From Armatimonadota bacterium (GTDB taxonomy: Bacteria; Armatimonadota; UBA5829), in assembly GCA_012522575.1 (NCBI GenBank), contig JAAYKE010000067.1:64383-99468 (forward strand): a DNA stretch of 35,086 nucleotides, written 5' to 3'. Both the position numbers and the translations under genes were made by a program. Positions 269 through 23,351 of the stretch are shown here, in pieces; positions within the stretch are counted from its first letter, which is position 1; every line of letters begins with the position of its first letter. Under the pieces are notes generated by a model. The model saw nothing but the letters and a program-made list of their open reading frames with translations, did not search any database and was not told where the DNA came from.

Positions 269-868
269 CTACTGCCGCTTTCTGGCGTGTGCCAGATAGA
301 ACTCCGGCTCGTCCGTAGCGGATATATCCGAAAATCCTGCCGCGCTCAACATTCGCTTCATCTCATCAATGCAGGGGGCCCTGTCCTCGGATACAACCGA
401 GTCCGTTTCGGAGTGCACCTGATTGACGGCATCGCGTCCGGTCGGATGGGAAATCACTATTATCCCTTCCGGCCTCAGCAGTGACCAAGCTCGCTTCAGT
501 ACATGAGCCTTGTCGGAAAAATGCGGGTAGACGGCGTTGCAGATGACCGCGTCAAAGGAGGCATCGGCGCAGTCGAAATCCTCGATATCGGCCAACTCGA
601 AGCTCACTTTGTCCGATGATACCTTGGATGCGGCGACTCTGAGCATCTCTTTGGATATGTCAATCGCCCTTATATTGCAGTTATTGTTGGTTGATTGAAG
701 CAGGCAGGGGATGATCACCCCGGTGCCGGTTCCCACGTCCAGAATGTCCATTCCCGGCTCTATCCCCGATTCGCGAACGACCCGGTCGAGCAGTTCGCAT
801 ATATCATCCCGCTCCAGGCTGTCCCACTTATCAGCATAAGAATCGAAAAACTCCGCCTGACTGGTCAT
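269..868 (-). CDS. Class I SAM-dependent methyltransferase
   Basis: 199 aa. A Rossmann methyltransferase core is visible: motif I ILDVGTGTGVIIPCL at about residues 42-56, an acidic end of strand 2 (IRAIDIS), motif II/III DIEDFDCADASFDAVICN and a later LLRPEGIIVISHP strand. This is the Methyltransf_11/25 type; the methyl acceptor cannot be deduced. The ATG overlaps the stop of the upstream metal permease gene by four bases (ATGA), so it is translationally coupled as the distal gene of the metal-uptake operon. Its job there is unknown. It could modify a small metal chelator or a protein, or simply be a co-transcribed housekeeping gene. The fold is certain, the function is not. Confidence 0.85.
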   Translation of the reverse strand: MTSQAEFFDSYADKWDSLERDDICELLDRVVRESGIEPGMDILDVGTGTGVIIPCLLQSTNNNCNIRAIDISKEMLRVAASKVSSDKVSFELADIEDFDCADASFDAVICNAVYPHFSDKAHVLKRAWSLLRPEGIIVISHPTGRDAVNQVHSETDSVVSEDRAPCIDEMKRMLSAAGFSDISATDEPEFYLAHARKRQ

Positions 869-1701
869 ATTTCACCTTCATTTGCAGTTGACATACGAGC
901 GCGTCTCTTTGGGGAAAACGAGTTTGCCAGCACAAAGAATCCGCACGATGTGAGGATTATCAGCGCGCCGGTCGGCAGGTTCAGTTTCCACGACAGCGCA
1001 AGCCCTGCCCAGCCGGACGCTACTCCGAAAATTGCAGCCAGCACAAACATCTTCTTCAAGCTGTATGTAAGTTGATATGCAGCGGCAGCCGGGTTGACTA
1101 TCAGGCTGAAGACCAGAAGCCCTCCAATCGCATTCAGCGAAGCCGTCGCAGTAAGCCCGCTTAGCACCAGTATCCCATAAAACACACAGGTCGCCGGCAG
1201 CCCAAGGGATCGCGCGAGTTCTCTATTGAACACCACGGTCTGAATTTCCTTAAAAAACAGGCTTGTGAGCACAATCGACCCAAGAGCCACTCCCGCAAGC
1301 AGATGCAGGCTCCCGGAGGTAACGGTAAGCACGCTTCCCCATAGCAGGCTCAACGCCTCGGCCTTTGGCCCTGGAATCAGAGACAACAGCAGAAAAGAAA
1401 TGCCCAGCGCCGATGAAAATACTATTCCTATTGCCGTATCGGGCGCGAAATCCCCGCGGTCGGCAAGGGGACCTAAAGCTCCCGCAGCAACCAGACTGGC
1501 GATGATAGCCAGCCACATCGGGTTTGCGTTGAGCGCGAGACCCAGCAAAGCTCCCGCAAACGCCGCATGGCTCATACACACTCCCAGAAACGAAACCCGC
1601 ATCGTCACAACCAGCACGCCGACTATCGAGCACGATACTCCCGCAAACAACGTCGCAAGAACAGCCCTTTGCCAAAACGGATCGTGAATCACGTCAAACA
1701 C
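865..1701 (-). CDS. Metal ABC transporter permease (ZnuB/TroC/ABC-3 family)
   Basis: 278 aa, normal for the ABC-3 family of zinc/manganese/iron permeases. It is almost entirely hydrophobic, with 7-8 predicted membrane helices. The family-typical N-terminal segment is present (FDVIHDPFWQRAVLATLFAG, then GVLVVTMRVSFLGVCMSHAAFAGALLGL), as is the VFSLIVNPAAAAYQLT stretch near residue 195. It overlaps the upstream ATPase gene by eight bases and the downstream methyltransferase by four, so all three are coupled. It would form the membrane channel for the cation delivered by the binding protein at 2389-3279. Family members usually move Zn, Mn or Fe; the NikR operator upstream of the operon suggests nickel here (inference). 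Confidence 0.93.
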   Translation of the reverse strand: MFDVIHDPFWQRAVLATLFAGVSCSIVGVLVVTMRVSFLGVCMSHAAFAGALLGLALNANPMWLAIIASLVAAGALGPLADRGDFAPDTAIGIVFSSALGISFLLLSLIPGPKAEALSLLWGSVLTVTSGSLHLLAGVALGSIVLTSLFFKEIQTVVFNRELARSLGLPATCVFYGILVLSGLTATASLNAIGGLLVFSLIVNPAAAAYQLTYSLKKMFVLAAIFGVASGWAGLALSWKLNLPTGALIILTSCGFFVLANSFSPKRRARMSTANEGEI

Positions 1702-2389
1702 AGGTCGCCGCCTCGCATATTTCCCCGCCTTTCATCACGATAATGCACTCGCATAAATCCGTCAGCATCTCATAATCGTGCGAAACGACAATAGTCGTCA
1801 GCCCGATTTGCGCATGGGCGGTTTTGACTATGTCCCTCACCCTGTGCTGAGATTCCGAATCGAGAAAGGTAGTCGGCTCATCGAGCAGCAAAAGCTGCGG
1901 CTCCTGTGCCAGCGCGCGGGCAAGGTTGATTCGCTGTTGTTCCCCTCCTGACAGTTGACCAAAGGGTCGCTGGGCCAGGTGACTCGCGTCCACCCTCTCC
2001 AATGCATCGCGCACGGCCTGCCTGTCGATCTCCTTTGGACTCCGCAAAAGGCCAATTCGGCCATAGCGTCCCATCAACACCACCTCTTGGGCAATCACCG
2101 GCATACGAGGATCTGTGTTCAGAGTCTGAAATACGCAGGCGACAGAACGGCGAATCTTTTTATAGTTACCGGCGGTGAGCTTCATCCCCAGCGCCTCGGC
2201 ATACCCGGAACTGACCGGCAGCAGACCCTGAATAACGCGCAGCAGGGTTGTCTTTCCCGATCCATTAGGGCCGGATATGCCGACGATGCGCCCGGACTCG
2301 ACCGCCAGGGTAATGTCTTTGAGCGTGCGGCTGCCCTTATACCCGGCGTTTACATTCTCGAAGTTAATGATTTTTCGATGGTCAGTCAT
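1694..2389 (-). CDS. Metal ABC transporter ATP-binding protein (ZnuC-like)
   Basis: 231 aa ABC ATPase. Visible motifs are Walker A GPNGSGKTT (residues ~40-48), the Q-loop in VFQTLNTDPRMP, signature LSGGEQQR, Walker B LLLLDEPT followed by the D-loop, and the H-loop in IVVSHDYE. Length and gene order (binding protein, ATPase, permease) match ZnuC/TroB-type cation importers. Its ATG overlaps the binding protein's TAA by one base (TAATG) and its end overlaps the permease start. It powers uptake by the permease at 865-1701. No unusual residues were seen in the catalytic motifs. Confidence 0.95.
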   Translation of the reverse strand: MTDHRKIINFENVNAGYKGSRTLKDITLAVESGRIVGISGPNGSGKTTLLRVIQGLLPVSSGYAEALGMKLTAGNYKKIRRSVACVFQTLNTDPRMPVIAQEVVLMGRYGRIGLLRSPKEIDRQAVRDALERVDASHLAQRPFGQLSGGEQQRINLARALAQEPQLLLLDEPTTFLDSESQHRVRDIVKTAHAQIGLTTIVVSHDYEMLTDLCECIIVMKGGEICEAATCV

Positions 2390-3279
2390 TAGTTGACGGC
2401 CTGCGGTTGCGAATCGGCGGCCTTTGGCAATCCTGCAATCACCCGCTGCACGTTATCTTCCACCCACGATCTCCAGGTTTCGGTATCCGGAAATCCGCCG
2501 GGAAAATTGGATAAGGTGACGTGGGATGCTCCGATATCGCGCGCCAGCGGACGGCCGGCGGTTGGGCCGCTTTGCAGGTTGTCCACGCATATACGAACCT
2601 TGTTCTTTCGACCGACTCCCGTTATGTGATGCAGTAAGACCGGAGTGAACTGCTCGGATCGCGGATATACATCGACCACATTCAACCCCATCCACCTGAC
2701 AGTCTCCTCCTGTTGATCGGAACACAGAGCCGCAACACCTTCCGCGCCTGCTTCCTTGAGTTCCTTTTTGAGATCGACATTGAGCTTGACATACTCAATT
2801 TCCAGCATCGCCAGCGACTTTCGATAATCATTGGAATTGGCAGGATCGGCATTTGACAGCACGCGGGTAACCTGCTGCAACGCCTGTATATATACGCTCG
2901 GCAGCATCCAGTTTCCCGCTACCGATATCGGAGCTTCTTTCGGCCTTTGACTTCCCGCAGATTCCAGCATCCTCGGCACAAAGCCTTCATAGCCGTGGGT
3001 AAATAGAAGTTTGCTGGAGCACAGGGCTTTCATGTCCTCCGGCCTGATATCATAATGACCCGGACAACTGCCCGGGGCTATCAGCGTCCCCACTTTGACG
3101 TGCTTTCCGCCGACTTCCTTAATTGCGCACTCCAGAAGCGAGGTAGTCGCCATCACCTGAAGCGACCCGATTTTCTCCTGCTGTACGCTCACTCCGGGTC
3201 TGGGCAAAAGCACGACAACCGCGGTCCCAAGTATCAGAAGAATGGCGATTGCGTAAATAACATACTTCCGTGAACGCAT
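2389..3279 (-). CDS. Metal ABC transporter substrate-binding protein (ZnuA-like), membrane anchored
   Basis: 296 aa. An N-terminal hydrophobic segment (YVIYAIAILLILGTAVVVLL) has no lipobox cysteine and looks like an uncleaved anchor or signal peptide. The body resembles cluster A-I metal-binding proteins: VMATTSLLECAIKEVGG, then LIAPGSCPGHYDIRPEDM, where the His in PGHYDIRPED matches the first metal ligand of ZnuA (PGxDPHxYxPxPxD), and LLFTHGYEGF, which supplies the second His. The later His ligand and C-terminal Asp/Glu region are less canonical (ICVDNLQSGPTAG). There is no His-rich loop of the kind common in zinc ZnuA. It starts directly after the pseudopilin stop (TAAATG). With NikR control of the operon, nickel is the likely cargo (inference); Zn or Mn remain possible. 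Confidence 0.85.
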   Translation of the reverse strand: MRSRKYVIYAIAILLILGTAVVVLLPRPGVSVQQEKIGSLQVMATTSLLECAIKEVGGKHVKVGTLIAPGSCPGHYDIRPEDMKALCSSKLLFTHGYEGFVPRMLESAGSQRPKEAPISVAGNWMLPSVYIQALQQVTRVLSNADPANSNDYRKSLAMLEIEYVKLNVDLKKELKEAGAEGVAALCSDQQEETVRWMGLNVVDVYPRSEQFTPVLLHHITGVGRKNKVRICVDNLQSGPTAGRPLARDIGASHVTLSNFPGGFPDTETWRSWVEDNVQRVIAGLPKAADSQPQAVN

Positions 3280-3876
3280 TTACGGGGATTTCCTCCCATC
3301 ACTGAGCCTGACTATTATCCCGTTTTGATCATAAGGGTACCAGTGCTGCTTCGGCACAGGCATCATATTCTGCGCAAATTCTATCAAACCCCGCCTCTTG
3401 CCCGGCCCCACGCTCCATACAACCCATTTGAGAGGTGCGTCTTTCTGGCTGCGGTATGCCACGCACTGCTGCTCGCTGGTCGGATAATCCGCCGGCACAT
3501 AGAGGGTGATTTTGGAGATACCATTAGTCACGTAACCCAACCCCGGGGCTATGTATTTGTAGGTTCGACCGGGATTGAACGGGTCGTAGAACTTCTTTGA
3601 GGAGATATATTTATAAAGCGGCTCAGGCAGTTCGTAGTAGTCGTCTATCTTAACCTGCTGGCACGACTCACTTGCCAGCGGGGGTCTGCCGTTCCAGTCA
3701 TCGCAATACATCTGCACCGCATCCGCAACCTGCCTCAGCTCAACGTGCACCCTCGCCACCTGCGAACGCAACTTGACGTTCACAAATACGGGGAACAAAA
3801 TAGCCGCGATGATCGCGATAACCGCGACCACCACGAGCAGTTCTATTAAACTGAAGCCAGATCTTTTAGCGATCAT
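3280..3876 (-). CDS. Type II/IV pseudopilin-like protein with prepilin N-terminal methylation motif
   Basis: 198 aa. It starts MIAKRSGFSLIELLVVVAVI, a textbook class III prepilin leader: a basic peptide, cleavage expected between Gly7 and Phe8, Glu at mature position 5, then one long hydrophobic helix of about 22 residues. The C-terminal globular part contains WVVWSVGPGKRRG and a final YPYDQNGIIVRLSDG, which resembles the WSVGPD...YDPTNGT ending of pseudopilins common in Planctomycetes and Armatimonadetes. It overlaps the upstream secreted-protein gene by four bases (ATGA) and abuts the metal-binding protein gene, placing it inside the metal-uptake operon, which is unusual. It would be membrane-bound or assembled into a short pseudopilus; its export machinery is not in this window. 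Confidence 0.9.
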   Translation of the reverse strand: MIAKRSGFSLIELLVVVAVIAIIAAILFPVFVNVKLRSQVARVHVELRQVADAVQMYCDDWNGRPPLASESCQQVKIDDYYELPEPLYKYISSKKFYDPFNPGRTYKYIAPGLGYVTNGISKITLYVPADYPTSEQQCVAYRSQKDAPLKWVVWSVGPGKRRGLIEFAQNMMPVPKQHWYPYDQNGIIVRLSDGRKSP

Positions 3877-5219
3877 TGAACTACGGATGCAATATCCTTT
3901 GCATTACCCAACATAAGCACCGGGGCCGACGCGTTGCCTGACGCCACAGCGGTCACTGTTACCATCGTTCCAGTCGCAGGAACAGCATATCCGTTGGAGT
4001 TTAGCGTGATTATGCTGTTATCGTCGGTCGTGAAGCTATAAAGCCCGCCGCCTTGGCTGGTCCCGATCGTGCCGACACATCTTACAAGCAGCCCAAAGAC
4101 GTCAAGCCCGGCCTGACCCGTCAGAGTCCTGCCATTTACCAGAAGCGGAGCCGCGCTGATTCTGCTCTTTACTATATATTTGGCGTTCAAAGCCTTCTGG
4201 CCGTTGGACTCAGTAACAGTACCCATTATACTTACAACATCTCCGACAGTAACAGGCCGACTGCTGATTACTTCCACTCCACCGGTTCTGTCGGAGTCCT
4301 GAATAAAGAACCTGCCCTCATATACCCGCGATACCACCTTGCGAGCAACGGCAACCTGCTCTCCAACTGCGCGGTCCCTGACATCTCTGCAAACATCCAG
4401 AGCAATCGCTATGTCGCCGGCGTTTCGCAGAAGCATTCTATATACGCCATGATACACCACCGGGCTGCCAGATCCGCCGTCCTCCTGGTCATATATGCGG
4501 ACCACGCTGAACTTGCCGGCAGGCTGCGAGACTCCGGAAAGATTGACCATCGGCGGAATATACAGACTGCCGACTCCGCTTTCATCAGCAATTGTCAGAG
4601 TTTCATTGTTTGCCCAGGTACCAGCCGTAATCTGAACGCCGTGCAGCATAGTAAACCGGGTCTGATAACGCTCCCCGCCGTCGTTGCGCGTTTTATCGAA
4701 ATAATTGCAGTTGCTCAAAGAAGGGATCAGTTCAGGATCCGGCAGACCCGGATGACCTATCACCTCGACAACCGGACAAATTTCGAGATCATTGGTGTGC
4801 CTGTCGTTTATGAAAACCTTGCCGTTGTGGTCGGCGAGAAACCCCGTCACCCGCACCCTGTCTCCAGCATTAAACGGCGCATACTGCTCAGGAATCCAGC
4901 CTCCAAGCGGCCACCAGAAACTTCCGGCCCATATCTCCATCCCGCCGCGGTCGCTCGTCTCGTCCTGTATGAACAGCGCATACATAGCTCCGCTGCTCCA
5001 TAGATCGTCCATCCCGGCAAGCGCAACCCCTTCGACCGTGACCATATTGGCTTCAATCACATCCTCATTGCTATTATATGCGGGCGCATTGACCAACGGG
5101 TGCGTGCCAAGACCATAAGCATTCACCGCCTGATAATCCCAAAGAGTGGCCGCCGATGCCGACAAAGCAAACGCGCAGCAGACAAAAATAAGCGCAACAA
5201 TCGATATTGTTCTTCTCAT
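3873..5219 (-). CDS. Secreted protein of tandem OB-fold-like repeats, unknown function
   Basis: 448 aa. A signal peptide is clear (RRTISIVALIFVCCAFALSASAA, cleavage near residue 23). The mature part carries at least two and probably four similar beta-rich units. Each has an FIQD or LFIQDE strand, a GGxEVW-like strand, then GDxVxxxGxVxxxNGxxxL; compare FNAGDRVRVTGFLADHNGKVFIND near residues 115-140 with TVGDVVSIMGTVTESNGQKALN near 325-345. This pattern is typical of OB-fold-like domains in exported proteins. No catalytic motif is visible. It is the first gene after the NikR operator/promoter and is coupled by ATGA overlap to the pseudopilin gene. A role in surface binding or substrate capture is speculative. 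Confidence 0.75.
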   Translation of the reverse strand: MRRTISIVALIFVCCAFALSASAATLWDYQAVNAYGLGTHPLVNAPAYNSNEDVIEANMVTVEGVALAGMDDLWSSGAMYALFIQDETSDRGGMEIWAGSFWWPLGGWIPEQYAPFNAGDRVRVTGFLADHNGKVFINDRHTNDLEICPVVEVIGHPGLPDPELIPSLSNCNYFDKTRNDGGERYQTRFTMLHGVQITAGTWANNETLTIADESGVGSLYIPPMVNLSGVSQPAGKFSVVRIYDQEDGGSGSPVVYHGVYRMLLRNAGDIAIALDVCRDVRDRAVGEQVAVARKVVSRVYEGRFFIQDSDRTGGVEVISSRPVTVGDVVSIMGTVTESNGQKALNAKYIVKSRISAAPLLVNGRTLTGQAGLDVFGLLVRCVGTIGTSQGGGLYSFTTDDNSIITLNSNGYAVPATGTMVTVTAVASGNASAPVLMLGNAKDIASVVQ

Positions 5220-5243: not shown

Positions 5244-5270
5244 GTGTTACGATTTTTCACATAGTAGCAC
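5244..5270. promoter_or_regulatory. Candidate NikR operator
   Basis: Inverted repeat GTGTTAC-N13-GTAGCAC. Thirteen of fourteen half-site bases match the GTGTTAC-N13/14-GTAACAC motif that I recall being described for NikR in deltaproteobacteria such as Geobacter. It lies 25-51 bases upstream of the first gene of the metal ABC operon, overlaps that operon's predicted -10 element, and nikR itself is the adjacent upstream gene. Confidence 0.75.
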
Positions 5271-5289
5271 GTGAATCGCAAACTGTCCA
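5261..5289 (-). promoter_or_regulatory. Sigma70-type promoter of the metal-uptake operon
   Basis: On the minus strand TGGACA (5289-5284) is separated by exactly 17 bases from TACTAT (5266-5261). Transcription would start near 5254, about 35 bases before the ATG at 5219. The -10 lies inside the NikR inverted repeat, the geometry expected for repression by nickel-loaded NikR. Confidence 0.6.
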
Positions 5290-5343: not shown

Positions 5344-5766
5344 CTAGCACGAAATATGCGCGCCGGTGGTTGTGCAGACTAATTGTCCGTGTTTGACTCC
5401 GTGGGCTGCTATCAGCGTATCGGCCACGCTTTTAACATCGCTGCTTGCTCCTCGCACCACGATCACTTCGAGGCAGTTATGCGCGTCGAGGTGAACGTGT
5501 GTGCTGCATACGATATTGTCGTGGCGTTGATGCTGCAGATCGGTAAGCACATTTGCCAACTCGTGCTCGTGGTGTTCATATACGATAGTGATTGTGCCGA
5601 TCACCTCTGCGGCAGGGTCCGCCCACTCCGTTTTGACGAACTCCCTGCGCATCAGGTCCCGAATCGCCTCCGAACGCGAGGCGTAGCCGCGTTCTTTGAC
5701 AAGCTCATCGAACCGCAATAGTATGTCCTGCTCGATAGATACCCCGAATCTTTCAAGAACAGACAC
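5344..5766 (-). CDS. nikR: Nickel-responsive transcriptional regulator NikR
   Basis: 140 aa from the GTG at 5766, the usual NikR length. The longer open frame to 5859 is rejected because GGAGG sits seven bases before this GTG and the protein then starts SVLERFGVSIEQD like other NikRs. An N-terminal ribbon-helix-helix (VSIEQDILLRFDELV, then YASRSEAIRDLMRR) is followed by an ACT-like metal/tetramer domain. The nickel site is intact: a His in HQRHDNIV, the THVHLD pair and the Cys of HNCLEV correspond to E. coli His76, His87, His89 and Cys95. The DNA-contacting strand reads R-F-G-V-S, i.e. Arg/Gly/Ser at alternating positions rather than Arg/Thr/Thr of E. coli, consistent with a GTGTTAC-type operator. 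It likely represses the downstream metal operon when nickel is plentiful. Confidence 0.95.
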   Translation of the reverse strand: MSVLERFGVSIEQDILLRFDELVKERGYASRSEAIRDLMRREFVKTEWADPAAEVIGTITIVYEHHEHELANVLTDLQHQRHDNIVCSTHVHLDAHNCLEVIVVRGASSDVKSVADTLIAAHGVKHGQLVCTTTGAHISC

Positions 5767-6088: not shown

Positions 6089-6163
6089 TTGAATCTCAAA
6101 AGCAACGGACGTAACTTTCGGCTGAGGCCGCACCGGACGGAGTCACGGGGAGCATACGCATGA
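6089..6163 (+). CDS. Possible 24-codon leader ORF coupled to the permease gene
   Basis: TTG at 6089 follows AAAGGAGG with a six-base spacer, the best ribosome site in the region. The frame encodes 24 residues, strongly basic (six Arg, one Lys, one His), and stops at TGA 6161-6163, overlapping the permease ATG as ATGA. The arrangement is that of a translationally coupling leader peptide. The permease also has its own GGGGAG eight bases upstream, so the leader may be dispensable or coincidental. No homology is recognisable in so short a sequence. Confidence 0.4.
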   Translation: MNLKSNGRNFRLRPHRTESRGAYA

Positions 6164-7878
6164 GCTTGTTCCGAAGGTTTATGCCCGGATGGTCACAAGC
6201 CAGGTTCACTACATGGGCCGATGTGGTGGTTCTGTTCGCCTTAATGGCGCTGATCTATGTCGGCGCCGAACTAGCCAGCTCCGCACCTAAGGTGATAGGC
6301 GGGCCGAACATAAAACTCACCCCTGTCGCGCTGCCGTTTTATGCCGCGTTGTCGGTTTCCAGAATGGCCGCCGCCTATGTGTTGTCCCTGATATTTACCC
6401 TCATCTACGGATACATAGCGGCCAAAAACAAACGAGCGGAGCAGGTTATGATGCCTGTGCTCGACGTGCTCCAAAGCGTGCCCATACTCTCTTTTCTGCC
6501 CGTTGTATTGCTCGGTTTTGCCGCCATTATGTCCGAAAATATCGCGGCGGAAGTGGCGTCCATCGTCCTGATATTCACAAGCCAGGTCTGGAATATGACC
6601 TTCGCCTGGTATCAGTCGCTGACGACCATGCCAAAAGAACTGCAGGAGGCAAGCAGGGTATTTCGATTCAATGGCTGGTTCCGCCTCAAAGCCCTCGAAC
6701 TGCCCTTTGCCGCCATAAGCCTGATATGGAACAGCATGATGAGCTGGGCCGGAGGCTGGTTCTTTTTGATGGCTGCGGAGATTTTCACCGTAGGGGACCG
6801 CGACTTTCGACTCCCGGGCCTTGGCAGCTATCTTCAGACCGCGGCAAATGAGGGAGATATTAACGCGATTTTGTGGGGAGTCGGCGCGTTGGTGCTGGTC
6901 ATAGTCATCCTCGACCAGTTCATCTGGAGGCCGATGCTGGTATGGGCGGAGAGATTCAAAGTGGAGATGGTCGCAGGGGAATCCGTCCCGCAATCGTGGT
7001 TCCACGATATACTGCGAAACTCCGCGCTTGTCACATGGTTCAATGCCAAGGTGATAACGCCGATTGGGGAACGGTTGGACGCCCTTTCGATGCGGTATAT
7101 GCACAGTGATTCAAAACCCGCAGGCAACGGCAGATGGTCATGGGGCTCAGTCGCGTCCGCTGCGATTGTCATAGCGGCTCTTGTCTATGGAATCTACAGA
7201 TCAGTTAACATGCTCATCGAGGTTTCGATGCCGCAATGGGCTGAAATCGCACTGGGACTTGGTGCTACCCTGGCCAGGGTTATGGTCGCGCTGGTCATAG
7301 CCCTTGCGTGGACGATTCCCGTGGGAACGGCTTTGGGAACGAACAAAAAACTGGCGAACTGGCTGCAGCCGATCGTGCAGATAACCGCCTCCGTTCCCGC
7401 GACCGCACTGTTCCCGGTGCTGCTGCTGGTATTGATAGGGTTGCCCGGCGGGTTGAATATGGCTGCGGTGATATTGATGTTGATGGGCACTCAGTGGTAT
7501 CTGCTTTTCAACGTGATTGCGGGAGCGGGAGCAGTGCCGCAGGATCTCAAATACACCTCGGCGCTGCTTGGCCTGAGCAAATGGGAACGCTGGAAAACCT
7601 TGATACTGCCCGCGTTGTTTCCATATATAATCACCGGAGCAATCACCGCCAGCGGAGGCGCATGGAACGCCAGCATTGTCGCTGAATATGCCAAATTCGG
7701 AGGCAAAACCGTGCATACGGTCGGCATAGGCGCGTCAATCGCAAAAGCTACCGCCGCAGGTGATTTCCCATCGCTGCTGGCTGCGACGCTGTCTATGGTA
7801 TTGGCTGTTGTAGTCATCAATAGAGTATTCTGGAGGCGGCTCTATCGGCTTGCAGAAGATCGATATAGAATGGAGTAA
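6160..7878 (+). CDS. Anion-type ABC transporter permease with duplicated permease domain (COG4986-like)
   Basis: 572 aa. Two binding-protein-dependent permease domains lie in one chain: the first about residues 25-265, the second about 345-565, joined by a soluble linker with a WSWG segment. Each half has an EAA-type cytoplasmic loop for the ATPase (ELQEASRVFRFNGWFRLKAL and SALLGLSKWERWKTLILPA). Each loop is followed by a conserved helix pair, as in SsuC/TauC/NrtB proteins. Around 12 membrane helices are expected. The annotated family is 'ABC-type anion transport, duplicated permease component', whose substrate is not settled (nitrate, sulfonate, bicarbonate or others). The ATPase gene follows directly; no periplasmic binding protein is encoded nearby. 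It is divergent from nikR but has no NikR-type site visible. Confidence 0.9.
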   Translation: MSLFRRFMPGWSQARFTTWADVVVLFALMALIYVGAELASSAPKVIGGPNIKLTPVALPFYAALSVSRMAAAYVLSLIFTLIYGYIAAKNKRAEQVMMPVLDVLQSVPILSFLPVVLLGFAAIMSENIAAEVASIVLIFTSQVWNMTFAWYQSLTTMPKELQEASRVFRFNGWFRLKALELPFAAISLIWNSMMSWAGGWFFLMAAEIFTVGDRDFRLPGLGSYLQTAANEGDINAILWGVGALVLVIVILDQFIWRPMLVWAERFKVEMVAGESVPQSWFHDILRNSALVTWFNAKVITPIGERLDALSMRYMHSDSKPAGNGRWSWGSVASAAIVIAALVYGIYRSVNMLIEVSMPQWAEIALGLGATLARVMVALVIALAWTIPVGTALGTNKKLANWLQPIVQITASVPATALFPVLLLVLIGLPGGLNMAAVILMLMGTQWYLLFNVIAGAGAVPQDLKYTSALLGLSKWERWKTLILPALFPYIITGAITASGGAWNASIVAEYAKFGGKTVHTVGIGASIAKATAAGDFPSLLAATLSMVLAVVVINRVFWRRLYRLAEDRYRME

Positions 7879-7882
7879 CAAT

Positions 7883-9190
7883 ATGCACAACGAAGCTCTT
7901 GTCAAAGTAAGGGGTGTGACGCAGAGGTTTCATACCGGCAGAAAAGAGTTTATTGCTGTACGCGATATCAACCTTACAGTCAATGATGGCGAATTTGTTG
8001 AGCTGCTGGGGCCATCGGGCTGCGGCAAAAGCACCCTTCTCAGAATCGTCACCGGGCTGCAGAAACCCAGCGAAGGCACAGTATTATATCGCGGAGAACC
8101 CGTGGTGGGAGTAAACCCGCAGGCCACGATCGTATTTCAGACATTCGCTTTGTTTCCGTGGCTTACCGTCCAGCAGAATGTGGAGGTCGCGCTTAAGGCC
8201 AGGGGAGTGGGAGCCGACGATCGGGCGCACCGTGCGTTGGAGCTTATCGACCGAGTGGGTCTGGACGGCTTCGAGACTGCGTATCCGCGAGAGCTTTCCG
8301 GTGGTATGAGGCAGAAAGTGGGATTCGCCAGGGCGATGGCGGTAGAGCCGGAGTTGCTGTGTCTGGATGAGCCTTTTTCCGCGCTGGATGTGTTGAGCGC
8401 GGAGTCGCTGCGCAGTGAACTGCTCGAACTTTGGCAAAGCGGGGATATTCCTACCAAAGCCATCCTGATGGTGACCCACAACATAGAAGAGGCCGTCTTT
8501 ATGTCCGACAGAATAGTGGTTATGGACAAAAATCCGGGCAGGGTTGTGGCGGATGTCGTCGTGGATATGCTCCATCCGCGCAGACGCAAATCCGGCAAGT
8601 TCGCTAATATAGTAGACACCGTATATGCCACTCTGGCGGGACAGACACAGCCGGAGCATGTGGAGGTCGGGGCTGCTCCCGGTGAGCCGGGCGGCGCACG
8701 CGCACTGCCGGATATCGCGATAGGGGATCTGACCGGCGTGCTGGAGAGGCTTCACGAAATGCCGGGGCGGTCTGCGGATATATTCAGACTGGCAGAGGAA
8801 GTGCAGGCGGACTCGGACAACCTGCTCAGCCTCACGGAGGCGGCGGAACTTCTGGGCTTCGCGACGCTTGCCGAAGGCGACATAACCCTGACTCCGCTTG
8901 GTGAGACCTTTGCAGAAGCAAGGATCCTTGCGCGCAAGGAGATATTCGCTTCGCGCATTCGCAGGCTGCCACTGTTTCAATGGATGCTGCGAATGCTGGA
9001 TGCGGCGGATAATTCGCTCTTGGAACGCAACATTGCCATTACCGCTCTTGAGCTGGATTTCCCCCCTGAAGAGGCCGAGCGACAGCTCGACCTCATCATC
9101 GAATGGGGCAGATATGCCGAAATCCTCAGCTACAACGACAGCAGCGAACTGCTGGAGTCCGAACAGACGGCGATGGCCAAGCCGGTTTAA
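7883..9190 (+). CDS. NitT/TauT-type ABC transporter ATPase with C-terminal AAA-associated domain
   Basis: 435 aa. The start is placed at ATG 7883, four bases after the permease stop, with GGAG just upstream; an open frame to 7850 exists but lacks such a site. The N-terminal ABC ATPase has Walker A GPSGCGKST, Q-loop VFQTFALFPWLTV, signature LSGGMRQKVGFARA, Walker B LLCLDEPFSALD and H-loop VTHNIEEA. Residues ~285-425 form an extra helical, winged-helix-like region (LTGVLERLHEMPGRSADIF, then LTEAAELLGFATLAEGDITLT) matching the AAA-associated C-terminal domain found on ATPases paired with duplicated permeases; it probably senses or regulates. The stop overlaps, in a convergent arrangement, the stop of the NYN gene. 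Confidence 0.93.
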   Translation: MHNEALVKVRGVTQRFHTGRKEFIAVRDINLTVNDGEFVELLGPSGCGKSTLLRIVTGLQKPSEGTVLYRGEPVVGVNPQATIVFQTFALFPWLTVQQNVEVALKARGVGADDRAHRALELIDRVGLDGFETAYPRELSGGMRQKVGFARAMAVEPELLCLDEPFSALDVLSAESLRSELLELWQSGDIPTKAILMVTHNIEEAVFMSDRIVVMDKNPGRVVADVVVDMLHPRRRKSGKFANIVDTVYATLAGQTQPEHVEVGAAPGEPGGARALPDIAIGDLTGVLERLHEMPGRSADIFRLAEEVQADSDNLLSLTEAAELLGFATLAEGDITLTPLGETFAEARILARKEIFASRIRRLPLFQWMLRMLDAADNSLLERNIAITALELDFPPEEAERQLDLIIEWGRYAEILSYNDSSELLESEQTAMAKPV

Positions 9191-18200: not shown

Positions 18201-19394
18201 TTAATCGTCCTTTACCGTGTGATACATCCTGGCCTGCATACCGTGAACCTTGACCATTCCGACCGCTTCGCTCTGGTCGAACGTCTTTGAGTCGAAGCTG
18301 GCGAGGTCTTCGTTATACAGCGCATACTTGCTGGCGCGCCCGATGATCTGAGCCGAGCCTTTGAAGAGCCGCATCGTGACGGAGCCTGTTACTCTGGGCT
18401 GGATGGCGTTGATAAACGCTTCGAGGTCATCCTTGAACGGATCATACCACAGCCCCGCATAGGCAAGCTCCCCCCATTTCTGGTCGACCATTGTCTTGAA
18501 TGCGCGCTCATCTGCGGTGCAAACCAGAGCTTCGAGAGCCTGATGCGCGGGAATCAACAGACTTGCGGCAGGGCACTCGTAGTTCTCGCGCACCTTAAGG
18601 CCCATAATCCGGTCCTCCATAATGTCTATGCGCCCGATTCCATTGTCCCCGGCGAGCTTGTGCGCCGCAAGAACAAGGTCCAGCGGCTTCATCTTTTCGC
18701 CATTGATGGAGACGGGAATCCCGTTTTCGAATGCTATCGTGATCTCAGTTGGCGTATTCGGCGCATCCTGCGGACTTTTGGTCCACTGGAAAATCCCCTC
18801 AGGCGGCGGGTAGTTCGGCTCCTCGAGATGGCCCCCCTCGATGCTGCGTCCCCACAAATTTTCATCAATCGACCATATCTTATCCTTGCTCTGCCCTATC
18901 GGGATGCCTTTCTTTTCGGCGTATTCGATCTCCCAGGTGCGCGTCATGGTGTGCTCGCGCATAGGAGCGATGATGGGAGTCTCCGGCATAAAGGTTCTCA
19001 TCACGAACTCAAAGCGGAACTGGTCATTTCCCTTGCCTGTGCATCCGTGGCAAAACGCGTCGATTCCGCCGAGCTTCTGAGCGATCTCAACGGCCTTGCG
19101 GGCGATCAGCGGCCTGGCAATGGATGTGCTGATGGGATAACCCTGGTAGTCGCCGTTTGCCTTGATCGCAGGGAAGATAAAGTCCGTGACAAACTCCTCG
19201 CGAGCATCGATAGAATAGTGCTCCGTCTTGAGCAGCTTGGCCTTATCCTCGGCCTGTTTAAGCTCCCCAGCGGGCAAGCCGACATCGACTGTCACGGTGA
19301 CTACATGATCAAACCCGTAGTCCTCGCGCATCATCGGGATACACACGGAGGTATCAAGCCCTCCGGAGTAGACTAATAGAACGGTTTTTGGCAT
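18201..19394 (-). CDS. argG: Argininosuccinate synthase
   Basis: 397 aa, typical length. The PP-loop LLVYSGGLDTSVCIPMM at residues 5-21 binds ATP. The family segments ISTSIARPLIARKAVEIA, DAFCHGCTGKGNDQFRFE, IPIGQSKDKIWSIDENLWG and the C-terminal FDQSEAVGMVKVHGM region are all present. It joins citrulline and aspartate in the seventh step of arginine synthesis. GGAGGAG lies four bases before the ATG. It is downstream of argF on the same strand, 84 bases away, with a structured spacer between them, and is the last arg gene of the cluster; argH is not in the window. Confidence 0.97.
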   Translation of the reverse strand: MPKTVLLVYSGGLDTSVCIPMMREDYGFDHVVTVTVDVGLPAGELKQAEDKAKLLKTEHYSIDAREEFVTDFIFPAIKANGDYQGYPISTSIARPLIARKAVEIAQKLGGIDAFCHGCTGKGNDQFRFEFVMRTFMPETPIIAPMREHTMTRTWEIEYAEKKGIPIGQSKDKIWSIDENLWGRSIEGGHLEEPNYPPPEGIFQWTKSPQDAPNTPTEITIAFENGIPVSINGEKMKPLDLVLAAHKLAGDNGIGRIDIMEDRIMGLKVRENYECPAASLLIPAHQALEALVCTADERAFKTMVDQKWGELAYAGLWYDPFKDDLEAFINAIQPRVTGSVTMRLFKGSAQIIGRASKYALYNEDLASFDSKTFDQSEAVGMVKVHGMQARMYHTVKDD

Positions 19395-19429
19395 TTTCTC
19401 CTCCGTCGATAGTATATCGCTGAAAGTCG

Positions 19430-19473
19430 AAATCGGAAAGACTAGAACAGTCGCCGATTCCGACCTCCGATTT
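19430..19473. repeat. Nested inverted repeats in the argF-argG spacer
   Basis: AAATCGGA (19430-19437) pairs with TCCGATTT (19466-19473); inside it GACT (19440-19443) pairs with AGTC (19449-19452). Further CGGA/TCCG pieces suggest a degenerate repetitive element rather than a simple terminator. There is no U-tract on either strand. Confidence 0.4.
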
Positions 19474-19478
19474 GCTTA

Positions 19479-20432
19479 TTACGATCCCAATATCATCATC
19501 ACTGCCTTTTGCACGTACAGCCTGTTTTCGGCTTCGTCGAATACCACGCTCTGAGGGCTGTCGATCACCTCGTCCGTCACCTCTGAGCCTCGGTGCGCGG
19601 GCAGGCAGTGTTCGAATATGGCGTCGGGTTTCGCGTGGCTCATTAGAGCGGAGTTCACCTGGAATGGCGCGAAGATCTTCTCTCGTTCGGCGGCTTCCTC
19701 CTCCATCCCCATGCTTGCCCAAACGTCTGTTACGACAACATCCGCATCGCGAACAGCCTCTATCGGATCATTTACGACTTCTATTATCGAGCCGGTTGTT
19801 CGAGCGTCGGCTTTGGCTTGTGTCAGCGTAGATGCATCCGGGTCATAGCCTTCAGGACAGCCCAGACTGAAGTGCGTGCCGACCTTTGCGGCGAGCAGCA
19901 TCAGCGACTGGCTGACATTGTTGCCGTCCCCTAAAAACGCCATTTTAAGCCCTTCGAGCCTGCCTTTATGCTCCAATACGGTCTGGAAATCAGCCAGCGC
20001 CTGACAGGGATGTTCGAGGTCGCTGAGTCCGTTTATCACGGGAATATCGGCGTATTTTGCAAGCTCCGTTACGGTGCGATGGGCAAAGGTTCGAGCCATT
20101 ATGATATCGACAAACCTTTCGAGGTTTCGAGCGGCATCGGCGATGGTTTCGCGCTTGCCGAGCTGGATATCCATCGGCTGCAGATTGATCGCCTGCCCGC
20201 CAAGCTGGAATATGCCTGTCTCAAAACTCACTCTGGTGCGCAGAGAGGGTTTTTCGAAGATCATTGCCAGGGTCTTGCCTTCCAAAACCCTGCGCTGTTC
20301 GCGTGCGCTGATCTCCTCGTGTTTGAGGCTGCGCGTAAGATCGAAAATGGCATCAAGATTGTTCTTTGTTAGATGGGATATCCCGATCAGATCTCCGCCC
20401 TTATCAAAAATGCTTTCAAATTGCTGTTGCAT
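19479..20432 (-). CDS. argF: Ornithine carbamoyltransferase
   Basis: 317 aa from ATG 20432, which has GGAG nine bases upstream; a longer open frame to TTG 20468 lacks such a site. Carbamoyl-phosphate motif EKPSLRTRVSFETG (residues ~53-66), ornithine/catalytic segments ARTFAHRT, LEHPCQALADFQT and TDVWASMG, and the C-terminal HCLPAHRGSEV are all intact. It forms citrulline from ornithine and carbamoyl phosphate. The gene lies between the metallophosphoesterase and argG in the arg cluster, all on the minus strand. Confidence 0.97.
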   Translation of the reverse strand: MQQQFESIFDKGGDLIGISHLTKNNLDAIFDLTRSLKHEEISAREQRRVLEGKTLAMIFEKPSLRTRVSFETGIFQLGGQAINLQPMDIQLGKRETIADAARNLERFVDIIMARTFAHRTVTELAKYADIPVINGLSDLEHPCQALADFQTVLEHKGRLEGLKMAFLGDGNNVSQSLMLLAAKVGTHFSLGCPEGYDPDASTLTQAKADARTTGSIIEVVNDPIEAVRDADVVVTDVWASMGMEEEAAEREKIFAPFQVNSALMSHAKPDAIFEHCLPAHRGSEVTDEVIDSPQSVVFDEAENRLYVQKAVMMILGS

Positions 20433-20464
20433 AATATTTCTCCGCAAAATAGGATTATCCACGC

Positions 20465-21262
20465 TCAATCGACATATATTGTCCTGTAACTGACCTTGCC
20501 GTTGTTATACTCGTACATTCGAAATGCGTTCTGCCTGCCGAACAGGGAGGATACCGGCGGGCAGACGAACTGCGGAACATCGCCGATCCAGTGAAGCTCA
20601 TCGCGGTGGAAATGGCCGGTGATGACCGCCTTCACGTTCTTATGAGAAGAGATCAGAGACTCCCACTTCTTTCTGTTGGACTCCGGCCAGCCGTCATGCA
20701 TTTTATTGAGATAAAAATCTCTGTTGACAGGAGTGTGGGTGAATATAATAACGGGTTTGTCCCCTGCATCCCTCAATGCGCGCTTCAGCCATCCCAGCGC
20801 ATCGAATTCGACCCCAACATCAACCCTCAGCGGCTCGGAATAGACCATCAAGAACACTACGCCCTTTACCGTAGCCTGATACGCCAGCGGGCCGATGTGT
20901 TTGATAAACGCATCGCGCATAGCCGGAGCTTTGTCGCCTTCCACAATATCGTTATTGCCGGGCAGGTAGTAAACGGGCGGCTTGAGCGGCTTAAACGTAT
21001 TTAGCGCGGTCTCGACGACCTTGTCATCTAGTATGCATTCGTCGAATATGTCCCCCGTCACTACCACGGCTTCGATTTTAATCGGAAGAGCGTTGATTGA
21101 GGCTACCACGTTCTCCGTTCTACGGGTATTGTCCCCATATCCGAAATGGGTATCGGTCATCTGCGCAAAATAGAAATGCTGCGCGCCGACCGGCAAAGCC
21201 AGCGCAAAAAGCAGTATTATGAGCGCGGATAGTTTGATTTTTTGTGGGATTCTACTCTGCAA
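20465..21262 (-). CDS. Secreted calcineurin-like metallophosphoesterase within the arg operon
   Basis: About 265 aa from TTG 21262, which overlaps the argD stop by 11 bases and has GGAG four bases before; an open frame extends to TTG 21286. A signal peptide (IKLSALIILLFALALPVGA) puts it outside the membrane. Metallophosphoesterase motifs occur in order: DTHFG (DxH), VVTGDIFDE (GD), YLPGNND, a later His in IFTHTP, and VITGHFHRDE (GHxH). The GNH[D/E] motif reads GNND, so the catalytic-acid His is Asn. Its substrate is unknown (phosphoesters, nucleotides or phospholipids). Its place between argD and argF, with close coupling to argD, is unusual and may reflect insertion into the operon rather than a role in arginine synthesis. 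Confidence 0.88.
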   Translation of the reverse strand: MQSRIPQKIKLSALIILLFALALPVGAQHFYFAQMTDTHFGYGDNTRRTENVVASINALPIKIEAVVVTGDIFDECILDDKVVETALNTFKPLKPPVYYLPGNNDIVEGDKAPAMRDAFIKHIGPLAYQATVKGVVFLMVYSEPLRVDVGVEFDALGWLKRALRDAGDKPVIIFTHTPVNRDFYLNKMHDGWPESNRKKWESLISSHKNVKAVITGHFHRDELHWIGDVPQFVCPPVSSLFGRQNAFRMYEYNNGKVSYRTIYVD

Positions 21263-22409
21263 TGATCTCCACCGCCTTATCCACAAGCTCCTTGGTAACG
21301 ATCAAAGGCGGAACGAAGCGCAGGATATGGTCCCCGATTGCGTTTACAATAAGACCTCTGTCCAGCGCGGTCGCCGCCAGAGTCTTTGCGACAGGTTCGA
21401 CAAACTCCGCTCCTATCATCAAGCCCAGGCCGCGGACCTCTTTGATTCCGGGCAGTTTTCTCAGTTTATCCATAAAATATGCGCCGACTTCGAGGGAATT
21501 GTCCACCCAGCCGCCGTCGATGATCTCCGAAACACAGGCGATTGCGGCCGCACACGCCAGAGGATTGCCTCCAAATGTGGAAGCGTGGTCGCCGGGTTCG
21601 AATACATCGGCATATTTATCCCTTGCCAGACAGGCGCCGATCGGAAATCCGCCGCCGAGGGTCTTTGCCAGGGTCATAATATCCGGCGCGATATCGTAGT
21701 TTTGAAACCCGAACAGCTTGCCCGTTCTCCCAAGTCCGGTCTGCACCTCATCGAAGATAAGCCCTGCGCCGTATTCGTCGCAAAGCTGCCTCGCTGCGCT
21801 CAAAAATTCTTTTGTGGCGGCATGCACTCCGCTTTCTCCCTGCACAGGCTCCATCATAATGGCGCAGGTCTTTTCATTAGCGGCCGATTTTAGCGCGGAG
21901 ACATCGTTATATGGCACATATTTGAAACCCGGAGCAAGCGGGGTAAAGGCAGATTGATACTTCGGCTGGCCGGTAGCGGTGATAGCCGCCAGTGTTCTGC
22001 CGTGGAAAGACTGCTCTGCGGTTATAATCTCGGTTTTTTTCGGCTGGCCTGCTGCTTTCGCGGCTTTCCTGACCAGTTTGAAGGCGGCCTCATTTGCTTC
22101 GGCCCCTGAATTGCAGAAAAATACCTTGTTCATACCGGACGCATCCGCCAGCAATTTGGCGAGCTGCGGCTGCGGGGTTGTGTGATAGAGATTGGATGTG
22201 TGCATCAGCGTACCGGCCTGACTGCAAATCGCCTCTACTACTTTCGGCGGACAATGGCCAAGGCCGTTTACCGCGATTCCGGCGACGAAATCCAAATACT
22301 TCCTGCCGTTTTCGTCATATACGAAGCAGCCCTCGCCTCTCACAAAAACTACCGGCAGCCTGCCATAGGTGTGCATCACATAATTACTGTCTAACTCGAT
22401 GGTGGTCAT
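21252..22409 (-). CDS. argD: Acetylornithine aminotransferase
   Basis: 385 aa class III PLP aminotransferase. Visible are FVAGIAVNGLGHCPPKV, the CNSGAEANEAAFKLVRK cofactor-phosphate region, a SFHGRTLAAITATGQPKYQ stretch, IFDEVQTGLGRTGK with the PLP-ring Asp, and TLAKTLGGGFPIGA with the Schiff-base Lys. It converts N-acetylglutamate semialdehyde to N-acetylornithine. The gene is 23 bases after argB and overlaps the following metallophosphoesterase. Close relatives act on lysine-pathway or succinylated substrates, but the arg context supports argD. Confidence 0.96.
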   Translation of the reverse strand: MTTIELDSNYVMHTYGRLPVVFVRGEGCFVYDENGRKYLDFVAGIAVNGLGHCPPKVVEAICSQAGTLMHTSNLYHTTPQPQLAKLLADASGMNKVFFCNSGAEANEAAFKLVRKAAKAAGQPKKTEIITAEQSFHGRTLAAITATGQPKYQSAFTPLAPGFKYVPYNDVSALKSAANEKTCAIMMEPVQGESGVHAATKEFLSAARQLCDEYGAGLIFDEVQTGLGRTGKLFGFQNYDIAPDIMTLAKTLGGGFPIGACLARDKYADVFEPGDHASTFGGNPLACAAAIACVSEIIDGGWVDNSLEVGAYFMDKLRKLPGIKEVRGLGLMIGAEFVEPVAKTLAATALDRGLIVNAIGDHILRFVPPLIVTKELVDKAVEIIAE

Positions 22410-22432
22410 AAATATAAGTCCTTCCGGGGGAT

Positions 22433-23290
22433 CTACTGCATAATCATCGTTCCGATCCCCGTATCGGTGAAAATCTCCATTAGCAGGGAGTGCGGTTTTG
22501 TGCCGTCGACTATGTGAGTGCGCGGGACGCCGCCTTTGAGAGCGGTAATGCAGGCCTCGACTTTCGGGATCATGCCGGAGCCTATTTTGCCCTCCCGAAT
22601 CATTTTACTCGCATCTGAGGTATTTAGTTCGGAAATGAACGTCGATTCGTCCCCATAGGAGCCATAGATACCCGGCACATCGGTCATCATAATCAGCTTT
22701 TCTGCGCAGACTTTGGCTGCAATCTCCCCGGCGATGTGATCCGCATTGACGTTGAAGCTCTCCCCATTGATCCCGATTGCGACCGAGGAAATCACCGGAA
22801 TATATCCGTGCTGCAAAAGATCAATCAGGATATCCGCGTTTATCTCCGTAACTTTCCCTACAAAACCGAGGTCAACTTCTCCGTCCGCCTTTTCGGCTAC
22901 GATAAGATTTGCGTCTTTGCCGCTGAGTCCGACGGCTTTTGCGCCCTCGCCGTTAATAAGGGAGACTATGCCCTTGTTGGTCTTGCCGGCAAGCGCCATC
23001 TCCACGATTTCCATAGTCTCCGCATCGGTGACCCTCAAACCGTTGACAAACTCCGGCTCCTTACCCATTTTTTTCATCAGCGAACTGATTTCAGGGCCGC
23101 CTCCGTGCACGAGAATCGGTTTCATCCCGACGCAATGCATAAGCACGATGTCGCGGGCGACGCCCTGTTTGAGGTTCTCATCGATCATCGCGTTGCCGCC
23201 ATACTTTATGACGACAATTTTGCCGGAGTAGGCTTGTATGTATGGAAGCGCCTGGACAAGTATCCCTGCTTCCTCGCGTGTATAGTTCAT
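22433..23290 (-). CDS. argB: Acetylglutamate kinase
   Basis: 285 aa from ATG 23290, with GAGGAGAG nine bases upstream; the open frame upstream to 23341 is rejected. Amino-acid kinase landmarks are VVIKYGGNAMIDE (Lys of the phosphate site), PILVHGGGPEISSLMKKMG, and VKVTEIN-like GFVGKVTEINADIL. The C-terminal set SKMIREGKIGSGMIPKVEAC and GGVPRTHIVDG follows. It phosphorylates N-acetylglutamate in the second arginine step and is commonly feedback-inhibited by arginine. First gene of the arg operon here; argC and argJ are not in the window. Confidence 0.96.
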   Translation of the reverse strand: MNYTREEAGILVQALPYIQAYSGKIVVIKYGGNAMIDENLKQGVARDIVLMHCVGMKPILVHGGGPEISSLMKKMGKEPEFVNGLRVTDAETMEIVEMALAGKTNKGIVSLINGEGAKAVGLSGKDANLIVAEKADGEVDLGFVGKVTEINADILIDLLQHGYIPVISSVAIGINGESFNVNADHIAGEIAAKVCAEKLIMMTDVPGIYGSYGDESTFISELNTSDASKMIREGKIGSGMIPKVEACITALKGGVPRTHIVDGTKPHSLLMEIFTDTGIGTMIMQ

Positions 23291-23322
23291 TTGATCAGCT
23301 CTCCTCGGTAGACGAACATTAC

Positions 23323-23351
23323 ATGGTATAGACACCAACAAGCGCCGTCAA
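23323..23351 (-). promoter_or_regulatory. Sigma70 promoter of the arg operon
   Basis: On the minus strand TTGACG (23351-23346), a 17-base spacer and TACCAT (23328-23323). The start would be near 23316, giving a ~26-base leader that holds GAGGAGAG before the argB ATG at 23290. No ARG-box-like dyad was recognised. Confidence 0.5.

Follow-up and report, generated by a model that had tools for sequence, protein, structure and literature searches.

In an Armatimonadota bacterium, a dyad that matches the NikR operator overlaps the promoter of a six-gene operon, and the ZnuABC-like transporter encoded by this operon is probably a nickel importer. We assign a probability of about 80% to the reading that the operator represses the operon and that its ZnuABC-like part imports nickel, as the ion or as a chelate, by means of a binding protein carrying a CPGH motif. 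Features are given below by their positions in the window, which is the whole stretch of 35,086 nucleotides that was analyzed.

5344 to 5766, minus strand: nikR, nickel-responsive repressor, with a GTG start at 5766, an RFGVS strand, and a His/His/His/Cys nickel site
5284 to 5289, minus strand: -35 element TGGACA, with the same 17-nt spacing in relatives (TTGAC/TRGACA)
5261 to 5266, minus strand: -10 element TACTAT, in its extended form TGCTACTAT, inside the left half-site; TACNAT is kept in relatives
5244 to 5270, no strand assigned: predicted NikR operator dyad GTGTTAC-N13-GTAGCAC, with the letters GTGTTACGATTTTTCACATAGTAGCAC, overlapping the extended -10
3873 to 5219, minus strand: secreted tandem OB-fold protein, first operon gene, with orthologues; model mean pLDDT of 79 and multi-OB matches
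3280 to 3876, minus strand: prepilin-type pseudopilin (Pfam N_methyl; TIGR02532 over its cutoff; orthologues aligned)
2389 to 3279, minus strand: ZnuA-like solute-binding protein of the CPGH type (C72, H75), predicted to bind nickel (Pfam ZnuA, 1e-23)
1694 to 2389, minus strand: ZnuC-like ATPase (Pfam ABC_tran)
865 to 1701, minus strand: ZnuB-like ABC-3 permease of the CPGH clade (Pfam ABC-3, 4e-54; clade support 100/99)
269 to 868, minus strand: SAM-dependent methyltransferase, a conserved cassette member (Pfam)

A NikR-type dyad on the promoter of the operon

The published delta-proteobacterial NikR consensus is GTGTTAC-[N13/14]-GTAACAC (Rodionov et al. 2004, PMC545781, Table 4), and the dyad agrees with it at 13 of 14 half-site bases in the inverted orientation, here in a host from Armatimonadota. 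Its N13 spacer falls within the consensus range of 13 to 14 bp and recurs at nearly all sites of the relatives. Its start lies 51 bp 5' of the ATG (position 5219) with which the first operon gene opens, between nikR (5766 to 5344, minus strand) and the co-directional six-gene operon. In the minus-strand promoter, TGGACA (5289 to 5284) is followed after 17 nt by TACTAT (5266 to 5261) with the TG of an extended -10. The -10 lies inside the half-site that is nearer the -35, and this promoter position means that the half-site GTGCTAC, as read on the minus strand, holds part of the extended -10. The dyad has the placement expected of a NikR operator: it overlaps a gene promoter, and NikR is encoded in the same genome. 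The original prediction of a NikR motif sitting on the -10 of a TGGACA-N17-TACTAT promoter is therefore confirmed as an observation, and Ni(II)-dependent binding of NikR to the dyad is predicted.

A scan of the window alone allowing three mismatches did not find the dyad significant; such a scan is uninformative, so significance rests on genome-wide, shuffling, and relatives tests. A pattern search of the 3.06-Mb host genome for GTGNTAC-N13-GTANCAC with at most one mismatch returned this dyad as the sole match, and 2,000 shuffles of the promoter region never reached its score. The Rfam search detected no RNA elements, either anywhere in the window or close to nikR, and hence no NiCo riboswitch.

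The identity of the regulator is supported by Pfam NikR_C (8e-30), an NCBIfam NikR match over its cutoff, and a PDB match to NikR of Pyrococcus horikoshii. The protein combines an RHH domain with a NikR_C domain holding the H/H/H/C nickel site, the makeup of the family, and all four nickel ligands are present in the window NikR and kept in 47 of the 47 sequences compared. The gene is present in a single copy in the host genome, adjoins the dyad, and runs in the same direction as the operon; its predicted Arg/Gly/Ser pattern proved to be the DNA-contacting strand RFGVS. The Arg-Gly-Ser NikR of Geobacter reportedly binds this type of site.

At nikR promoters of other loci, a direct half-site repeat such as GTGTTAC-N13-GTGTTAC often stands in place of the inverted one (L034, L035, L036, L039, L041, L043, L047, L172, L174, L181, L221, L224, L228, and L235). 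These repeats lie mostly 20 to 45 bp 5' of nikR and have shuffle P values of ≤0.01 (200 mononucleotide shuffles each). The 2004 paper describes inverted and everted arrangements only (PMC545781). The window nikR has no direct-repeat half-site of this type at its own promoter.

Conservation of the dyad follows nikR

Orthologues of the OB-fold gene were located in relatives, yielding ten Armatimonadota genomes with both nikR and this gene, the host (G000) included. Alignment of these orthologous promoters, which had been proposed as a check, places the dyad and its promoter register in all ten, so that every nikR-positive relative with the first operon gene keeps the predicted operator. The best dyad 5' of the OB-fold gene scores 10 to 14 of 14 with a spacing of N13 in each genome, and the promoter reads TTGAC or TRGACA, N17, and TACNAT inside the left half-site GTGYTAC, with the -10 variant TACATT in G019 and G025. 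The same dyad and register also precede NikMQO, pilin, and other operons in relatives. When the ten promoter regions were shuffled, the observed score was reached in 0 of 2,000 trials in seven genomes, with P values of 0.02 in G010, 0.04 in G004, and 0.18 in G008, whose dyad is weak (10/14).

Comparison of the host with G001 shows identical half-sites (14/14), with 8 of 13 positions shared in the spacer and 6 of 25 in the downstream flank. In the sister pairs G003/G007 and G019/G025, both half-sites have changed in mirror fashion (T/C with A/G), retaining the symmetry. Loss of the dyad from relatives that keep operon genes was seen only in G021 and G023, which keep the OB-fold/pilin pair; this loss fits a NikR operator because nikR itself is lost there. 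Across 41 relatives, with kinship ignored, 10 of the 25 genomes with nikR carry the exact pattern, compared to 0 of the 16 without it (P = 0.003), and a reversed control pattern has no such bias (3 of 25 versus 4 of 16). Inspection by eye also found an ArsR-like regulator gene and a permease gene placed divergently beside the dyad in L097 (8818 to 10113; G003) and L098 (7250 to 8999; G007).

Gene content of the operon and its surroundings

Adjacent genes among the six abut or share no more than a few bases, an arrangement expected of a single operon. The expected combination of a metal importer and a pseudopilin is present, with one correction: the first gene encodes the secreted tandem OB-fold protein (3873 to 5219), not the pseudopilin. 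A sequence search of this protein against the PDB gave no match, and the fold search gave generic multi-OB matches only, with low TM scores.

Elsewhere in the window, positions 6160 to 9190 hold a fused BPD permease and ATPase whose C terminus bears an AAA-associated domain (PF09821). Its transcription leads in the direction away from nikR, and no NikR site was seen at it. Positions 18201 to 23341 resemble, by eye, an arginine biosynthesis cluster (argininosuccinate synthase, carbamoyltransferase, aminotransferase, and acetylglutamate kinase).

A binding protein without the canonical ligands

The model of the ZnuA-like protein (mean pLDDT, 93) has the cluster A-I fold and matches YfeA, ZnuA, and MntC with Foldseek TM scores of about 0.7. 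Its motifs differ from those of the canonical ZnuA of the host: NPHTY, NPHVWLDP, FHPTW, and LLLDAFG of the latter are replaced by CPGHYD, GNWMLP, CSDQQ, and LSNFPGG. In the alignment, the canonical Zn/Mn ligands (three His and an Asp, or two His, a Glu, and an Asp) are absent from the window protein and its clade and present in the canonical ZnuA of the host; with these ligands gone, a Zn/Mn role of the window protein is not supported. The clade instead has CPGHxD-like, GNWM, DNLQSG, and SNFPG motifs. Loci were found with DNLQSG and SNFPGG patterns, so these motifs were selected for; the CPGH motif was not used for selection, and across the clade C72 is conserved in 100% and H75 in 93% of sequences. 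We infer that Cys72 and His75 take part in forming a new site.

FpvC normally serves in pyoverdine iron uptake. It belongs to the same cluster A-I fold and was crystallized with Ni2+ according to its entry title (PDB 6r44), so this fold can hold Ni2+; however, FpvC is about 19% identical to the window protein and was not linked to NikR in this work.

Importers are exchanged within one regulon

In sister genomes, the slot of the ZnuABC genes is filled by other importers. Next to the OB-fold/pilin pair, G000 and G001 carry ZnuABC and the methyltransferase; G003, G007, G010, and G004 carry ECF S, FmdE-like, T, and A genes (in G008 only the S gene was seen); and G014, G019, and G025 carry just the methyltransferase. 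Dyads precede NikMQO in G015, G014, and G011, where NikM, NikQ, and NikO were called as CbiM/CbiQ/CbiO by Pfam for L046 and by BLAST for L099 and L101. G026 combines nikR, a TonB-dependent receptor gene, ECF genes, the methyltransferase, and ExbB, ExbD, and TonB, the last three named by eye. The presence of NikMQO, ECF, or ZnuABC genes in the same slot indicates that the parts of the regulon serve a single nickel task and that its importer can be replaced by another.

The host encodes a separate canonical ZnuABC elsewhere in its genome. No CbiM/NikM (PF01891), the component expected of a NikMNQO system, was found in this genome, and no NicO-family (NiCoT) permease was found either. As to nickel consumers, LarC (nickel insertion) and an adjoining LarB-type AIRC protein are encoded at L162 (4233 to 6246, contig C120). 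LarA was rejected as a consumer, since its domain (PF09861) was not found in the host genome although LarB and LarC are present, and so was [NiFe] hydrogenase (PF00374), for which the host has only a NuoD-like match below the cutoff.

The CPGH-type cassette across bacteria

When the alignment of the ZnuA-like protein was used to scan GTDB genomes, it recovered 80 loci (L165 to L244) in Armatimonadota, Chloroflexota, Bacillota (Moorella thermoacetica, Desulfofundulus, and Ammonifex), Elusimicrobiota, WOR-3, Hydrogenedentota, Sumerlaeota, Auribacterota, Thermodesulfobacteriota/Myxococcota, and others. In a permease tree of 90 rows, the 71 CPGH-type rows cluster together (support 100/99), separate from 19 canonical rows, which were taken from relatives only. 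At least 22 of the 80 CPGH loci have nikR, compared to 0 of 8 canonical ABC-3 loci of relatives; the other 58 loci show no nikR, many of them ending at contig edges and those of Moorella, Chloroflexota, and others having long flanks without it. The linkage to nikR recurs in separate clades, and dyads scoring 12 to 14 of 14 lie 5' of nikR in loci of Elusimicrobiota, Auribacterota, WOR-3, FCPU426, and Syntrophus. The methyltransferase accompanies 47 of the 53 CPGH loci with enough downstream sequence and none of the 8 canonical ABC-3 loci of relatives; it is also found beside ECF-type systems (L043).

A pilin gene lies close 5' of znuA in 10 of the 80 loci and a TonB-dependent receptor gene in 16, never both, and Gram-positive and Chloroflexota CPGH loci have neither. 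This exclusion, which could reflect phylogeny, is no more than a lead. Proteins of the FmdE family (PF02663), some of them named by eye, turn up repeatedly in operons with a NikR dyad or next to the cassette (L097, L105, L106, L107, L159, L160, and L175).

Proposed mechanism and alternative explanations

We propose that, when nickel is sufficient, Ni(II)-NikR would bind both half-sites, cover the extended -10, and block RNA polymerase. Under nickel shortage, the operon (OB-fold protein, pseudopilin, ZnuA, ZnuC, ZnuB, and methyltransferase) would be expressed, and its ZnuABC-like part would import nickel, either as the free ion or in chelated form, the remodeled binding protein using the CPGH motif in place of the usual His-rich site. 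The pilin and the OB-fold protein may act at the cell surface, and both, together with the methyltransferase, may help nickel acquisition. What the sequence itself shows is the dyad, its overlap with the promoter and its conservation, the NikR residues, the cassette clade, the loss of canonical ligands, and the gene neighborhoods; repression by Ni-NikR is inferred. Nickel rather than zinc or manganese as the cargo, as the original prediction had it, is strongly supported, short of proof, by the importer swap, the separate nikR-linked clade, the ligand loss, and the second canonical ZnuABC.

A random match, or a site used by a different regulator, is a highly improbable account of the dyad. Ten genomes keep it in register with the promoter, its half-sites change symmetrically, and it is absent from all 16 relatives without nikR, which outweighs the nonsignificant window scan; the divergent gene in L097 and L098, ArsR-like by its sequence, would offer another regulator but is not seen at the remaining sites. 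A true NikR operator could also control a transporter of zinc, manganese, or cobalt that is merely under nickel control. The ABC-3/ZnuABC homology and the Zn, Mn, or Fe bound by known members of the binding-protein fold make this conceivable, as does the ability of NikR to control non-importers, such as at the predicted hydAB2 site in Desulfovibrio desulfuricans (PMC545781). We nonetheless consider it unlikely, given a clade devoid of canonical Zn/Mn ligands, a separate canonical ZnuABC in the same genome, NikMQO or ECF genes in the same slot of sister operons, and the recurrence of nikR linkage in separate clades.

Another reading takes the cargo to be not free Ni(II) but a nickel- or cobalt-related chelate or organic ligand (metallophore, corrinoid, or tetrapyrrole) made or modified by the methyltransferase. 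In its favor, 16 of the 80 loci have a TonB-dependent receptor gene ahead of znuA, the methyltransferase is almost always present, few classical metal ligands are left in the binding protein, and FmdE and DUF364 "heavy-metal chelation" genes lie nearby in Moorella; however, no ligand biosynthesis genes were recognized, and Gram-positive and Chloroflexota members have no receptor gene. We regard this as a minority possibility, one that overlaps nickel import under NikR control, since the latter allows a nickel chelate.

Relation to known systems and implications

The operon resembles the delta-proteobacterial NikR regulon (nikMQO and nikK; PMC545781) in its half-sites, its 13- to 14-bp spacing, the kind of regulator, and a site before an importer operon. 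It differs in its target, an ABC-3/ZnuABC importer accompanied by pilin, OB-fold, and methyltransferase genes, and in its phylum, Armatimonadota. With ZnuABC, MntABC, and YfeABCD (ABC-3, cluster A-I), the cassette shares the permease, the ATPase, and the binding-protein fold, but it lacks the conserved canonical ligands, has other motifs, falls into a separate permease clade, and is NikR linked. NikMNQO/NikKMLQO and NikABCDE are likewise ABC-type nickel uptake systems under NikR control, and NikMQO takes the same regulon slot in sister genomes, yet their membrane and binding components are unrelated to those of the cassette.

Surveys of nickel uptake list NikABCDE-, NikMNQO-, and NiCoT-type importers and no ABC-3 type (PMC2667541, PMC11247825). 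Our literature search, outside which most subscription papers lay, found no earlier description of an ABC-3-type nickel importer, a NikR-controlled pilin, or a NikR-controlled ZnuABC. The regulator, the site, and the transporter fold are known; what is apparently new is their pairing with a distinct, widespread subfamily. A broader and more speculative proposal, which we hold tentatively and think somewhat improbable as a whole, is that the CPGH ZnuABC-methyltransferase cassette is an unrecognized family of nickel or nickel-chelate importers in about ten phyla and that a pseudopilin under NikR control, alone or together with the secreted OB-fold protein, replaces the TonB-dependent receptor as the surface module for nickel capture in Armatimonadota and some relatives.

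If nickel import by this cassette is true, it would be a new entry route for nickel in many anaerobic bacteria, and many "zinc or manganese transporters" of nickel-demanding anaerobes (acetogens such as Moorella, Dehalococcoidia, sulfate reducers, and syntrophs) would be nickel importers, with the CPGH motif as a simple annotation rule. The NikR code, a GTGYTAC half-site carrying the extended -10, would extend to Armatimonadota, and why nickel should control a pilin becomes a testable question.
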